From: Pyrinomonadaceae bacterium
Lineage (GTDB): Bacteria; Acidobacteriota; Blastocatellia; Pyrinomonadales; Pyrinomonadaceae
DNA: 64,000 nucleotides
Direction of reading: 5' to 3'
Assembly: GCA_036277115.1 (NCBI GenBank)
Contig: DASUNM010000021.1
Coordinates: 372,001 to 436,000, forward strand
The notes under the pieces were generated by a model, which was not told where the DNA came from, searched no databases, and saw nothing but the letters and a program-made list of their open reading frames with translations. Shown piece after piece: positions 7,219-64,000 of the stretch (the stretch's first letter is position 1; every line of letters begins with the position of its first letter). The position numbers and the translations under genes were made by a program.

Positions 7219-8019
7219 TTAAGGCTGACCACCCAGTCTCTTTCGGTAATCTTCACCTTCAATCACGACAGTTTTGCACATCTCGTAAAGTCGCGACCGC
7301 AGCGGGACGCCGATGCGATCCTCGAGTATCTCGCCTTCCTTTTCGTTCTTGCGAGCATCAGAAAAGTTTGTGGTGAAGATCGTCAGGCGCTTTTCGTTGT
7401 AGCGGTTGTTGATGATTTGCATCATCGTGTCGCGTACCCAATCGGTCGGCTTGGACGCGCCGAGTTCATCCAGCACCAGAACTTCAGCATTAAAGACTGG
7501 TGCAAGCACAATCAACTCAGAATTCTGCGAGACGGGATTGTACGAGTCCTGTATCTGCCGCAGGAGCGCGCCAAACTGATAGAACAATCCTCGCGCCTGG
7601 TAACGCGAAATCAACTCGCGCAGAATCGCGACTGCCAAATGTGTTTTGCCGACGCCGACCGGACCCGTGAGCAGAAGTCCGCGGCCCGCCAGCGACAGGT
7701 AATCGTCGATGATGATCTGGGCTTCCATCTTGGCGGCCCATTTAGAGAGTTCATCATTCGCGGCCTCGTATCCCTGGATTGTGCAGTGCTGATACCGCGG
7801 CGGTATGCGCGCGGATTGCAGGAGCCGGTCGCGATTGTCGGGTGACTGGCATCGGCAACGGCGCGCGCCTTCGCCTGGGATTACTTCCATCCCGCTGCCG
7901 AAACAGTGTGGACAATCGGAGGTTGGCGGTGTCTCTGCCTCTGAGATCTGAGATCTGAGATCTGAGATCACCGGCGAAGCTGCGGATCCGTTGTGATTGC
8001 GATTTTCTGAAGAACTCAT
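7219..8019 (-). CDS. DnaC/DnaI-like replicative helicase loader ATPase
   Basis: AAA+ ATPase resembling DnaC/DnaI helicase loaders. An N-terminal zinc-binding region has CPHC and CRCQ, followed by Walker A GPVGVGKTHLA, Walker B LVLDELGA and sensor region IFTTNFSD. It ends normally at about 266 aa. The frame is open to 8073; ATG 8019 (MSSSENRNHN) is preferred because the extra 18 codons look unrelated, but no clear Shine-Dalgarno decides it. The N-terminal linker is encoded by four tandem copies of a 7-nt unit (7941-7968), a repeat inside the coding frame. It may act in helicase loading or be an IstB-like paralogue, but no transposase is adjacent. Confidence 0.82.
   Translation of the reverse strand: MSSSENRNHNGSAASPVISDLRSQISEAETPPTSDCPHCFGSGMEVIPGEGARRCRCQSPDNRDRLLQSARIPPRYQHCTIQGYEAANDELSKWAAKMEAQIIIDDYLSLAGRGLLLTGPVGVGKTHLAVAILRELISRYQARGLFYQFGALLRQIQDSYNPVSQNSELIVLAPVFNAEVLVLDELGASKPTDWVRDTMMQIINNRYNEKRLTIFTTNFSDARKNEKEGEILEDRIGVPLRSRLYEMCKTVVIEGEDYRKRLGGQP
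7941..7968. repeat. Heptamer tandem repeat inside the DnaC-like gene
   Basis: Four perfect copies of CTGAGAT. It encodes VISDLRSQIS in the N-terminal linker of the DnaC-like protein. Same 7-nt period as the arrays at 25.6, 46.2, 63.0 and 63.7 kb. Confidence 0.85.
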
Positions 8020-25578: not shown

Positions 25579-25655
25579 GGTGACAGATAACTGGTAACAG
25601 GTGACAGGTTGCTACGACCATCTTCCTGTCACCCGTTACCTGTCACCTGTCACCG
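25579..25655. repeat. Inverted heptamer arrays (GGTGACA type)
   Basis: Left array of four 7-nt units, GGTGACA, GATAACT, GGTAACA, GGTGACA (25579-25606). Right array TGTCACC, CGTTACC, TGTCACC, TGTCACC (25627-25654) is its inverse. A 20-nt spacer separates them. It fills the gap between two genes and ends 4 bp before the next ATG, so it lies in that gene's translation start region. Confidence 0.85.
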
Positions 25656-45200: not shown

Positions 45201-46184
45201 TTAGGGATGGCTGAAGAATGCATGAACGCCCGTTCGAACTGTGTGGTCGCTTATCTGCGCTAAGGTGCGTAGCGCCAGGGCCAAAGCGCGCCGGCCATCT
45301 TCGCCTGATACGATTGGTCGCGTCGCGGTCTCAGCGGCAGTCAGGAATGATTCAATCTCAGCGCGCAACGGCTCGATGTTGTTTACTTCCAGGACTCTGG
45401 TTTGCACCCCGGGCCACGCGCCCCCGGCTGAGGGCGCCAATCCGCTGATCGAAGCGTGATTCGTGACATAGTCGACCGCGATGTAATCCCGCGGTTGGAA
45501 GAAGCGCATCTTGCGAATTTTTTCAGTGCCGACGCGCGACGCGGTGATATTGGCGACGGCGCCGGTCGCGAATTCCAGCCGCGCGTTAGCGGCGTCAACC
45601 TTGTCCGTCAGGATCGGAATTCCGACAGCATGCAGCTCGGTGACTTCGACGGCTTCCCCGACCAGCCATTGAACGATGTCCAGATCGTGAATCATCAAGT
45701 CGAGCACCACATCGATGTCGAGTGAGCGCGCCGTGAATTCACCGACGCGATGGATTTCGAAATAGACGGGATTGCGCACATGCGGGCGCAGCGCCACCAA
45801 TGCCGGGTTGAAGCGTTCGGCGTGTCCGACTTGCAGCACGGCTTTTCCTGCGTGCGCCGACGCGATCATGCGGTCGGCTTCTTCAAGCGTGCGTGAGATC
45901 GGTTTCTCAACCAGGACGTGAATGCCTGCATTGAGCAGCTCGCAAGCGATTTCAGAGTGCGCTTCAGTGGGTACAGAAAGGCTGACGGCCTCAACTCTTC
46001 CGATCAGGGTGCGCCAGTCTGCTGTCGATTGAGTGTTGCGCTCTGTCGCGACCTGCTGTGCTCGTTTCTCGTCGAGATCACAAACCGCGGCGAACTCGCA
46101 GAGACCTTCCGCCGCCAGCGTTGCGTGAATGCGCGCGTGCTGCGTGCCAAGATGTCCAACGCCGATGACTGCCGTGCGAAGCAT
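45201..46184 (-). CDS. Gfo/Idh/MocA family oxidoreductase
   Basis: 327 aa, NAD(P)-dependent sugar dehydrogenase family. Rossmann GVGHLGTQHARI (residues 8-19), EKPISRT with the conserved Lys, GHAERFNPAL, and LDLMIHDLDIVQWLVG with the catalytic His/Asp pair. Homologues with HAERFNPA are often found near lipid A genes and are proposed to act on UDP-sugars. Here the neighbours are the serine hydrolase downstream and a GT39 protein divergently placed, so a surface-glycan role is plausible but unproven. Confidence 0.87.
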   Translation of the reverse strand: MLRTAVIGVGHLGTQHARIHATLAAEGLCEFAAVCDLDEKRAQQVATERNTQSTADWRTLIGRVEAVSLSVPTEAHSEIACELLNAGIHVLVEKPISRTLEEADRMIASAHAGKAVLQVGHAERFNPALVALRPHVRNPVYFEIHRVGEFTARSLDIDVVLDLMIHDLDIVQWLVGEAVEVTELHAVGIPILTDKVDAANARLEFATGAVANITASRVGTEKIRKMRFFQPRDYIAVDYVTNHASISGLAPSAGGAWPGVQTRVLEVNNIEPLRAEIESFLTAAETATRPIVSGEDGRRALALALRTLAQISDHTVRTGVHAFFSHP

Positions 46185-46194
46185 TTACCAAGTG

Positions 46195-46366
46195 GTCAGT
46201 TATCAGTAGTCATTGTCCGATCGTTAGTACTTTGTACTTTGTACTTTGTACTTTGTACTTCGTACTTGGTACTTTGATTGCTTCCCCCAGCTCTCAATTT
46301 GAAGGTGCCGGGACGACACATCAAAGTACAAAGAACTAAGTACAAAGAACAAAAGAACAACTGACC
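46195..46366. repeat. Inverted heptamer element with conserved core (copy 1)
   Basis: Outer units GTCAGTT, ATCAGTA, GTCATTG. Seven tandem GTACTTT-type units (46227-46275, five perfect). Core with TCAATTTGAAGGT and GACACATCAAAGTACAAAG (46270-46333). Inverse array AAAGTAC, AAAGAAC, TAAGTAC, AAAGAAC. Outer inverse AACTGAC. It fills the divergent gap between the oxidoreductase and GT39 genes. Copy 2 is at 62915-63112. Confidence 0.92.
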
Positions 46367-46378
46367 GTTTCACATTCC

Positions 46379-48046
46379 TTGGGACTATACTTGCCAACTT
46401 CAAAACTTGCCAAGCACGGTTGGAAGATCCTTTTCCTGAGTCTCGGCGCTATCTATCTTTATGGGTTAGGTTCGCTTCCTCTCGTCGGACCAGATGAGCC
46501 TCGTTATGCTCAAGTCGCGCGCGAGATGTTTCAGCGCGGCGATTTCATCACACCGACACTCGGTGGCGTGCCATGGTTTGAGAAGCCGCCACTGCTTTAC
46601 TGGATGATGATGGCGAACTATCGCGTGTTCGGCATCAGCGAGTTCGCCGCTCGTCTGGGGCCGGCTATATGCGGCTTATTGACCGCCGCTTTTGTTTTCT
46701 GGGCCGGTAAGAACATCACAAGGTTGAACGATGCCGACGAAGACGTCGTGAAAAACCGCGCGAATCTTGGGCATTGGACCGCGTTCGTTTTCCTTACCAG
46801 CCTCGGCACAATTGTCTTCTCACGCGGCGCGAGTTTCGACATTGTGTTAACGATGACGCTGACGGGCGCGCTTTGCTGCTTCTTTGTTTGGCAGGTACGA
46901 AATACTCAGGAACGTGACACACGAGGGTGGCTGCTCGCCGGCTTCTATCCGTTCATCGGTCTTTCGCTACTCGCAAAAGGTCTCGTGGGAATTGTGCTGC
47001 CGTTCGGCATCATCATCCTGTATTTCCTGGTATGCCGAGCGTTGCCGAGCAGACGTTTGGTGTTCAGCCTGTTATGGGGAATTCCAATCGCCATCGCCGT
47101 GGCTGCCGTATGGTACGGGCCGATGATTTACCGGCATGGTTGGACGTTCATCGATCAATTCATCGTTCAGCATCACTTCGCGCGCTTCGTTTCGAATAAG
47201 TACCGTCATCCCCAACCGTTTTACTTCTACGTGCCGGTCGTAGCTGCGCTGGTTCTGCCTTGGACGATGGTCTTGATCGCCACGCTTGCGGCGTCGCCGC
47301 GCTGGCGATGGCGCGCAGTGAACGTAATTGATCGCACGCGAATCTTTGCGCTGGCGTGGTTCATTGTTCCAACTCTCTTCTTTTCCTTGTCCGGATCAAA
47401 AATTCCCGGATACGTGCTGCCGGTATTGCCGGCGGCGGCGCTATTGATAGCAGAACGAATTACCTTTGTGGTTAAAGCTGGACTCGGCCAGCGTCTGATT
47501 CAATTGACCGGCGGCATGCTTCTTCTATTAACCGTCGTGGGCGCTTGGTCGGCCACGCGCGCTTTGGGCATGTCGAGTGTGTGGGTGATTGCCGGCACCG
47601 TGCCCGTGCTTGTAAGCGCATCAGTAGCGTTGTTCGCGCCGCGGCGGCGAGTCCTGAATTTCCTGCTCTTCGGTTTGATTTCCGTAGTTGTGAGCGCGAT
47701 GGCTTTGCAACCGGCGCGCGCGATTGCGAACCGAGAGTCGGTGCGCGAATTGATGCGAATGGCTGAAGCGCGCGGCCATGGCGGCGCTCCTGTGTTCTAT
47801 CTTTTGTGTGACGATCGAACCGCCGAGTTCTATGCGGGCGGCCGTCTGGCTTACCAACCAAACGGCGAACCGATTCGATTTGATGGAGCGCAGGAGCTTC
47901 CTCCCGCGATCCGAGCGAAAGGCAGCGTTGCGCTCGTCCTGGTTGAAACGCGTTGGGAGAAGCAGTTGTCGAACTACTCCGGAGTTGAATCGGAAAAGGT
48001 TGGCAGCAACGGCTGGGTCACTCTGTTTGTGGTTCGGCCGCGGTAA
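46379..48046 (+). CDS. Glycosyltransferase family 39 (ArnT/PMT-like) membrane protein
   Basis: 555-aa polytopic protein. The first periplasmic loop has GPDEPRYAQVAREMFQRGDF (the conserved Asp-Glu catalytic region) and VPWFEKPPLLYW, the classic ArnT/GT39 pattern using polyprenyl-phosphate sugars. Eleven or so hydrophobic segments follow, then a soluble C-terminal domain. The TTG start at 46379 lies directly after the heptamer element; a second TTG at 46391 is also possible. It may modify lipid A or other glycans outside the inner membrane. Converges with the next gene, 1 bp between stops. Confidence 0.9.
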   Translation: MGLYLPTSKLAKHGWKILFLSLGAIYLYGLGSLPLVGPDEPRYAQVAREMFQRGDFITPTLGGVPWFEKPPLLYWMMMANYRVFGISEFAARLGPAICGLLTAAFVFWAGKNITRLNDADEDVVKNRANLGHWTAFVFLTSLGTIVFSRGASFDIVLTMTLTGALCCFFVWQVRNTQERDTRGWLLAGFYPFIGLSLLAKGLVGIVLPFGIIILYFLVCRALPSRRLVFSLLWGIPIAIAVAAVWYGPMIYRHGWTFIDQFIVQHHFARFVSNKYRHPQPFYFYVPVVAALVLPWTMVLIATLAASPRWRWRAVNVIDRTRIFALAWFIVPTLFFSLSGSKIPGYVLPVLPAAALLIAERITFVVKAGLGQRLIQLTGGMLLLLTVVGAWSATRALGMSSVWVIAGTVPVLVSASVALFAPRRRVLNFLLFGLISVVVSAMALQPARAIANRESVRELMRMAEARGHGGAPVFYLLCDDRTAEFYAGGRLAYQPNGEPIRFDGAQELPPAIRAKGSVALVLVETRWEKQLSNYSGVESEKVGSNGWVTLFVVRPR

Positions 48047-62922: not shown

Positions 62923-63112
62923 TCAGACTTGTCAGTGGTCCGTTGTCAGTAGTCAGTTGGTCTTTTGTGCTTTGTACTTAGTTCTTTGTACTTTGATTCC
63001 TTAACCCAGACCCACTTTCAATTTGAAGGTACTCTGGGATGACACATCAAAGTACAAAGTACAAAGCACAAAGCACCAACGATCGTGCAACGGACAACTG
63101 ACCACTGACAGA
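62915..63112. repeat. Inverted heptamer element with conserved core (copy 2)
   Basis: Units GTCCGTA, GTCAGAC, then GTCAGTG, GTCCGTT, GTCAGTA, GTCAGTT (62915-62958). Then TTTTGTG, CTTTGTA, CTTAGTT, CTTTGTA, CTTTGAT. Core CCCAGA ... TTCAATTTGAAGGT ... TCTGGG. Inverse AAAGTAC, AAAGTAC, AAAGCAC, AAAGCAC, then AACGGAC, AACTGAC, CACTGAC. It shares its core with 46270-46333. It lies directly before trpG, whose ATG is 2 bp after it. Confidence 0.92.
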
Positions 63113-63113
63113 C

Positions 63114-63677
63114 ATGCTTCTGGTAATCGACAACTACGATTCGTTTACTTACAACCTCGTGCAGTACGTAGGGGAACTGGGCGAGCGGATCGAAGTCCGG
63201 CGCAATGATGAAGTCACTGTCGAGCAGATTGAGGCGATGAAGCCGGATCGCATTCTGATTTCGCCGGGACCGGGAACGCCCTCGGACGCGGGCATCGCGA
63301 TGACGGTGATCGAAAAGTTTGCCGGCAAGCTTCCTATTCTGGGCGTTTGTTTGGGACATCAGGCGATCGGGCAGGTGTTTGGTGGACGAGTGGTGCGTGC
63401 GTCCCGGCAATTCCACGGAAAATCGTCACGAGTGCAGCACGACGGCAAGACGATCTTCGAGGGTTTGGAAAATCCTTTCCCCGCGGGCCGGTACCACTCC
63501 CTGATCGTCGAGCGTGAGACATTCCCGGATGAATTGGAGATTTCTGCGACGACACCAAACGGAACGATCATGGGTTTGCGCCATCGCAGACTAAAGATCG
63601 AAGGCGTTCAGTTTCATCCGGAGTCGATCATGACGACCGAAGGGAAGAAGCTGCTCAAGAACTTTCTGAGTCTTTGA
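63114..63677 (+). CDS. trpG: Anthranilate synthase component II (glutamine amidotransferase)
   Basis: Supplies ammonia to TrpE (and possibly PabB). Class I amidotransferase: [27 protein letters not shown], nucleophile Cys in [10 protein letters not shown], catalytic His/Glu in [11 protein letters not shown]. 187 aa, normal. The ATG directly follows a heptamer element, so its ribosome-binding region lies within repeat DNA. Confidence 0.95.
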
Positions 63678-63781
63678 GTCTGGGATGCGAAGTCTGGAGT
63701 CTCTCTATTAATGGAAGCGTCGCGACGATGAATCACACAACACCAGCCACGGGACCTCAGACCTCAGACTCCAAACTCAAA
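63668..63781. repeat. Heptamer arrays spanning the trpG end and the trpD start
   Basis: Left: GAGTCTT, TGAGTCT, then AGTCTGG, AGTCTCT (63668-63704). Right inverse: ACCTCAG, ACCTCAG, ACTCCAA, ACTCAAA (63754-63781), inside the trpD frame as GPQTSDSKLK. About 50 bp separates the arrays. Confidence 0.75.
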
Positions 63782-64000
63782 AACTTCATTGGGCGGTTAG
63801 TGCGCCGCGAAGATCTTTCGCGCAGTGAAGCGAACGATCTCCTTGAAGCTTTGCTTAACGGCGAGGCTGCCGACGGTCAGATCGCCGCGACGCTGATCGC
63901 GCTCAAGCTCAAAGGCGAGACAGTCGAAGAGCTAGCCGGGCTGGCTGAAGGAATGCGCGCGCGCGCGACGCGAATTCAGTCCCGGCACGAGCGGTTCATT
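63728..64000 (+). CDS. trpD: Anthranilate phosphoribosyltransferase (3' end outside window)
   Basis: Third trp gene, anthranilate + PRPP to phosphoribosyl-anthranilate. Ninety-one codons are visible: after an unusual N-terminus (MNHTTPATGPQTSDSKLKNF) come RREDLSRSEANDLLEALLNG, QIAATLIALKLKGETVEELA and EGMRARATRI, the TrpD N-terminal helical domain. The first 18 or so residues are partly encoded by a heptamer repeat and have no family counterpart. The catalytic glycine-rich loop lies beyond the window. Confidence 0.9.
   Translation, partial: MNHTTPATGPQTSDSKLKNFIGRLVRREDLSRSEANDLLEALLNGEAADGQIAATLIALKLKGETVEELAGLAEGMRARATRIQSRHERFI

Follow-up and report, generated by a model that had tools for sequence, protein, structure and literature searches.

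That heptamers are over-represented in bacterial genomes was observed years ago but not explained. The GGGAATC heptamers of Xanthomonas form close inverted pairs, with 70 and 75 cases in two species, and these pairs avoid divergent gaps and, with sequences that vary, often occupy the same junctions in both (Rehm et al. 2015, PMC4692102). TAACTGA repeats, known from Beggiatoaceae, cyanobacteria and Bacteroidetes, are intergenic and often lie just upstream of start codons (MacGregor 2015, PMC4679880), and the short tandemly repeated repetitive (STRR) heptanucleotides of Calothrix comprise three words (cited in PMC4692102).

The window analysed here is a stretch of 64,000 nucleotides (G000:C21:372001-436000) within a 4.85 Mb genome. 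The sequence-only reading of this window had described seven tandem GTACTTT units, flanked by GTCAGTT-type units, facing an inverted set. This arrangement is real (Table 1): copy 1, at 46195-46366, runs from GTCAGTT-type units through a linker to (GTACTTT)7 and a core, beyond which lie inverted GTACTTT-type units and then inverted GTCAGTT, with the qualification that the outer units are degenerate (three to the left and a single clear one to the right) and that the right GTACTTT arm, placed at 46322-46360 by Tandem Repeats Finder, is irregular, including one 8-nt unit. Copy 1 sits in the divergent gap between genes at 45201-46184 (-) and 46379-48046 (+), whose products, by reading of the translations, are probably a Gfo/Idh-type oxidoreductase and a glycosyltransferase-like membrane protein, respectively. 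It folds strongly, with z values of -6.6 and -5.9 for its two strands, and an Rfam search over 45900-46700 gave only sub-threshold matches to miRNA models and no family above threshold. Copy 2, at 62931-63109 between an ankyrin-repeat gene and trpG, has the same layout and folds with a z of -10.4. Both sites hold heptamer arrays in relatives too, spelled differently. The junction of the further inverted pair in the window holds no heptamer array in the congener G377. Elsewhere in the window a lone array, (TCTGAGA)4.3, lies at 7940-7969 with no partner found, and a heptamer-like hairpin, GGAGTCTGAGGTCTGAGGTC ... GACTCCAGACTTCGCATCCCAGAC, lies beside copy 2 between trpG and the next gene (~63678-63800).

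Table 1. Heptamer features of the window, in window positions
Feature	Position	Strand	Remark
Copy 1, left outer arm	46195..46215	+	GTCAGTT ATCAGTA GTCATTG units; sequence read directly
Copy 1, linker TCCGATCGTTA, outer to inner array	46216..46226	+	
Copy 1, left inner arm, (GTACTTT) x7.1	46227..46276	+	Tandem Repeats Finder, 93% matches
Copy 1, core/loop with TCAATTTGAAGGT and GACACATC	46277..46322	.	common to three further copies, this genome only
Copy 1, right inner arm, AAAGTAC/AAAGAAC units	46323..46358	-	inverted relative to left inner arm
Copy 1, right outer arm, one AACTGAC unit	46359..46365	-	sequence read
Inverted heptamer pair TAACAGG / ACCTGTC, loop 21 nt	25588..25654 (C21:397588-397654)	.	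one array by Tandem Repeats Finder at 25625-25654
Copy 2, left outer GTCAGTN array	62931..62958	+	
Copy 2, left inner GTACTTT-type array	62964..62995	+	Tandem Repeats Finder
Copy 2, core, related to copy 1 core	62996..63047	.	z 21.5 vs shuffles
Copy 2, right inner AAAGTAC array	63048..63076	-	Tandem Repeats Finder
Copy 2, linker CAACGATCGTGCAAC and right outer GGACAACTGACCACTGAC	63077..63109	-	ends 4 nt before trpG start codon at 63114

The core of copy 1 had been thought conserved at 63.0 kb, and this was borne out: aligning the loop of copy 1 with that of copy 2 gives a score of 33.5, compared with about 7 for shuffles (z 21.5). Two further core copies exist, a 65-base core query finding four in all in this genome (C21:418268, C21:434988, C11:91785 and C11:105112) and no match in 59 other genomes of the family. 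The four core-bearing composites are 73-83% identical over their length, occupy unrelated junctions of this genome and have similar linkers (AACGATCGT / AACGGTCGT in copies other than copy 1). As the defining part of the element, however, the core had to be given up, as only these four copies, in one genome, have this shared body and the loops of most other copies are mutually unrelated.

The two copies belong to a much larger population of period-7 arrays. Our census covered 1.65 Mb of continuous sequence of this genome as well as targeted loci. Within the 1.65 Mb, 99 arrays of period 7 score at least 14, as opposed to 0-6 at other periods (the harmonic 14 excepted), and 33 inverted array pairs occur at period 7, with at most 1 at any other period tested. 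This specificity, together with the further copies, upholds the view of a defined, nested, repeated element as opposed to low complexity. Thirty-one of the 33 pairs are intergenic and 2 lie in genes, in sequence that is ~84% coding, and 28 of the 31 intergenic pairs separate co-directional genes. Arrays counted individually show a similar distribution, with 18 of 126 within genes (coding fraction 0.84) and an under-representation in divergent gaps, which hold 9 of 108 arrays while making up 19% of gaps. Many elements fill the stop-to-start spacer to within 0-15 nt, an example being the 71 nt between nuoE and nuoF, and other copies inside apparent operons adjoin a microcompartment shell gene and an aldehyde dehydrogenase gene or lie among oligopeptide ABC genes (nuoE, nuoF and the other operon gene names are our own reading, and gene starts were called with a simple program of our own). 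Hairpins of the GTACTTT type (A) and the GTCAGTT type (B), of which 14 and 37 elements with both arms were collected, are two among many word families; pooling this genome with G377, 17 word clusters contain at least three arrays.

These elements share features with each of the described systems and differ from each in others. Like the Xanthomonas heptamers they are intergenic, combine fixed and free positions within the unit (GGGANTN there), form close inverted pairs of 7-nt tandem units and are under-represented between divergent genes. The paired form as such is therefore not new, inverted heptamer pairs having already been reported in Xanthomonas (PMC4692102). However, Xanthomonas has one G-rich word with G-quadruplex potential, whereas here each genome has many words that are not G-rich, and the GTACTTT and GTCAGTT words contain no G-runs. 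Unlike in Xanthomonas, we also find nested two-word composites, a genome-specific order and the replacement of words at orthologous sites. The outer word GTCAGTT is one base from TAACTGA (reverse complement TCAGTTA), but TAACTGA sets are almost all direct repeats (169 direct and one indirect in BOGUAY; PMC4679880), whereas inverted pairs are the rule here. The proposed likeness to STRR sequences of heterocystous cyanobacteria is sound insofar as both are tandem intergenic heptanucleotides with several words per genome; the phylum differs, and the paired, inverted, nested form was not found described for STRR in the accessible literature. REP and REPIN sequences are likewise multicopy, intergenic, palindromic and genome-specific, but a REP is one short palindrome that has a tetranucleotide tag and is linked to a RAYT, and neither tag nor link was seen here. 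Template-switch quasipalindromes (PMC8794818, PMC7202029) offer a parallel in a replication process that matches the arms of inverted repeats; those are single sites, whereas ours form a dispersed heptamer family. A literature search on Acidobacteria and heptamer repeats, which covered few subscription papers, returned nothing on point. In the literature searched, multi-word nested elements whose words are replaced at orthologous sites appear to be undescribed.

Positions 4 and 7 are free in CTTNGTN and GTCNGTN units and the rest fixed: among units flanked by matching units, departure from consensus is 28-60% at positions 4 and 7 and mostly 2-12% elsewhere, a difference in variability of about tenfold. 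A universal 3+1+2+1 unit plan was considered and not adopted, as the two most variable positions are 3 or 4 apart in 9 of 17 clusters where a third would be expected, which is only suggestive. At the variable positions, arms of the same locus match no better than arms of different loci within one genome, so recent copying from arm to arm is not visible and the base-level covariation looked for on the strength of the sequence-only reading fails. This finding speaks against compensation of single bases within the locus and suggests that what stays constant is the word of the genome. Nesting order is fixed within a genome and specific to it. GTCAGTT outside GTACTTT outnumbers the reverse by 23:0 pattern matches in this genome and 19:0 in G063, and the order is reversed in G438 (0:17) and G235 (0:5), counts that are inflated by overlapping matches (distinct loci number ~6 here, 8 in G063 and 9 in G438) and come from two patterns of unequal specificity, with backward controls near zero. 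A universal nesting rule was rejected, since G438 and G235 run in the opposite order.

The spacer beside the oxidoreductase gene, recognised in other genomes by its conserved flanks, allows the element to be followed across the family. In 22 of 29 genomes both halves of this spacer have a period-7 score of at least 6.5, a lenient threshold that other periods attain in a few of these spacers; clear arrays are absent in four genomes (G075, G410, G420 and G438). The words vary, with GTCAGAR in G377 and G396, GGCAGTA in G399, GCAGAAG in G063, GCAGTGG in G189, ATCAGCG in G416 and TTCAGTT in G413 and G431. Left arms score on average 40.7 for complementarity to their own right arms and 23.2 to those of other species, and none of 100,000 permutations was as high in this test, which credits any inverted complementarity. 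The arms therefore change together between species at the level of the whole word, and it is here that the co-variation lacking at single bases is found. As many of the words share a CAG centre, it is plausible that they descended vertically with drift. A loop stretch conserved in most relatives, GAGTATC...GTTCAA, is missing from this genome, so that here the interior of the spacer was replaced by the core-bearing composite. Both the differently spelled hairpins in this spacer of relatives and the genome-specific nesting order had been missed by the sequence-only reading.

At other junctions the sites turn over. Among 93 junctions conserved with G377, one of the nearest relatives (median protein identity ~74%), 17 are heptamer-positive in this genome and 5 in G377, with 3 shared between the two. 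Heptamer hairpins occur at nuoE-nuoF in six relatives, which use at least five words, and the remaining relatives have different palindromes there or none. The junction that holds a composite in L175, a record with four genes 64-71% identical to a gene run on contig C27 of this genome, appears to hold another palindromic repeat here. It seems from these swaps that hairpin repeats occupy the gene junctions of this family interchangeably. Several spacers on C1 of G377 (L353-L372) that correspond to heptamer hairpins here contain other palindromes there, among them TTTAGAGGCGGGCTAC...GTAGCCCGC..CTAAAC, CCGACAAACTTCAGTTTGTCG and ATAGGTCCTATA.

We favour, with moderate confidence, the explanation that these elements are a non-coding intergenic repeat family that multiplies within the genome, its heptamer-microsatellite arms kept by slippage and template switching. 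In this model, the elements would be imperfect hairpins with arms of heptamer microsatellite, multiplying within the genome and spreading to gene junctions while retaining its specific word set and nesting order. The arrays would lengthen and shorten through 7-nt slippage, and template switching between arms during replication, which can create and maintain hairpins (PMC8794818), would keep them reverse-complementary as words. Sites would be gained, lost and rewritten between species, and elements, having no strong host function, would persist in places where the damage is slight, in the gaps from stop to start codon, operon interiors included. The shared core and the genome-specific order support copying as a unit, which is seen directly in the few core-bearing copies only, most loops being unrelated. 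The main unexplained fact is the roughly tenfold unevenness of the unit positions, which pure slippage and template switching do not predict, and two further points count against this explanation: recent copying between the arms of a locus is not visible, and most genomes of the family retain arrays at the oxidoreductase spacer, which a repeat that is easily lost would not be expected to do. Free and fixed positions would fit either a protein that reads the units or a process that writes them from a template. In the latter case a replication- or RNA-templated system would write 7-nt words, in which certain positions are left free, at the two ends of a spacer, following a genome-specific grammar and rewriting both arms together; this would be a bacterial heptamer-writing mechanism not yet described, and we regard it as distinctly unlikely.

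A possible but doubtful alternative is that the elements are selected RNA hairpins that control translation coupling, processing or stability at junctions, with words drifting and pairing kept by compensatory change. The strong folding of copies 1 and 2, the word-level co-change of arms and the persistence at the oxidoreductase spacer would all be consistent with this, as would the abutment of arms on start codons: SD-like motifs precede 11% of 55 genes with an array just upstream compared with 38% of 1312 genes overall, so that the arms occupy the ribosome-binding region. However, inverted repeats fold well regardless of origin, pairing is no better within a locus than between loci, pairing alone would not be expected to produce the uneven tolerance of positions, and at most junctions the element is lost or exchanged from one congener to another. 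That unevenness, together with the genome-specific word set, would fit arrays of binding sites for a DNA- or RNA-binding protein that recognises five fixed positions in each heptamer and disregards one or two, and MacGregor has proposed a post-transcriptional regulator for the TAACTGA heptamers (PMC4679880). We nonetheless consider this unlikely, given the many words per genome with no obvious target set, the freedom with which words change at the same site between relatives and the lack of a candidate protein.

Mobilisation of REP/MITE-type elements by a Y1 (RAYT/TnpA-REP) transposase would account for palindromic, intergenic, multicopy elements, and Y1_Tnp matches are present, with 9 in this genome and some in 18 of 20 relatives. 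It is nevertheless very unlikely, as a heptamer array lies within 700 nt of only 1 of the 7 Y1 genes whose flanks could be read, the oxidoreductase spacer of G405 holds a heptamer hairpin although that genome gives no Y1_Tnp match, and no conserved end tag or target duplication was recognised. Stable hairpins at gene ends might also be read as bidirectional transcription terminators, but we judge this highly improbable because the hairpins fill stop-to-start spacers, including those inside apparent operons; they moreover show no enrichment between convergent genes, where 1 of the 31 intergenic pairs lies, and no T-run follows the arms of copy 1. Chance low complexity or an assembly artefact, in favour of which nothing but simple repetitiveness was found, has practically no credence in view of the period-7 specificity and the same architecture in several separately assembled genomes, which argues against the artefact that the sequence-only reading had allowed for.

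Following one spacer through most of a bacterial family shows a hairpin architecture that stays while its two arms change their word in concert, and word order emerges as a genome-wide trait. The origin of heptamer repeats is thereby made testable, with slippage and template switching set against selection and against a writing enzyme, and the copies provide a natural series for studying the spread of long imperfect hairpins and their persistence within operons.

Many phyla have exact GTACTTT arrays, and word match alone cannot show descent, as between GTACTTT and cyanobacterial STRR words. Among the 80 loci listed in a public scan for such arrays, a close facing pair was found only in two Acidobacteria records, L175 and L246. 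The other arrays stood alone, except in three records where they were widely separated and arranged the opposite way. Two public records, L196 and L231, contain GTACTTT-type arrays of ~140-155 nt with no inverted partner. The composite of L246 (isolate RYN_26) is the same sequence as a match in G063, a member of the same family as the present genome. In the present genome, C21:304615-307103 (L084) is dense in inverted heptamer pairs with the words GTTTCAA, AGTTTCG and CTTTGGT, some of which adjoin apparent tRNA genes.
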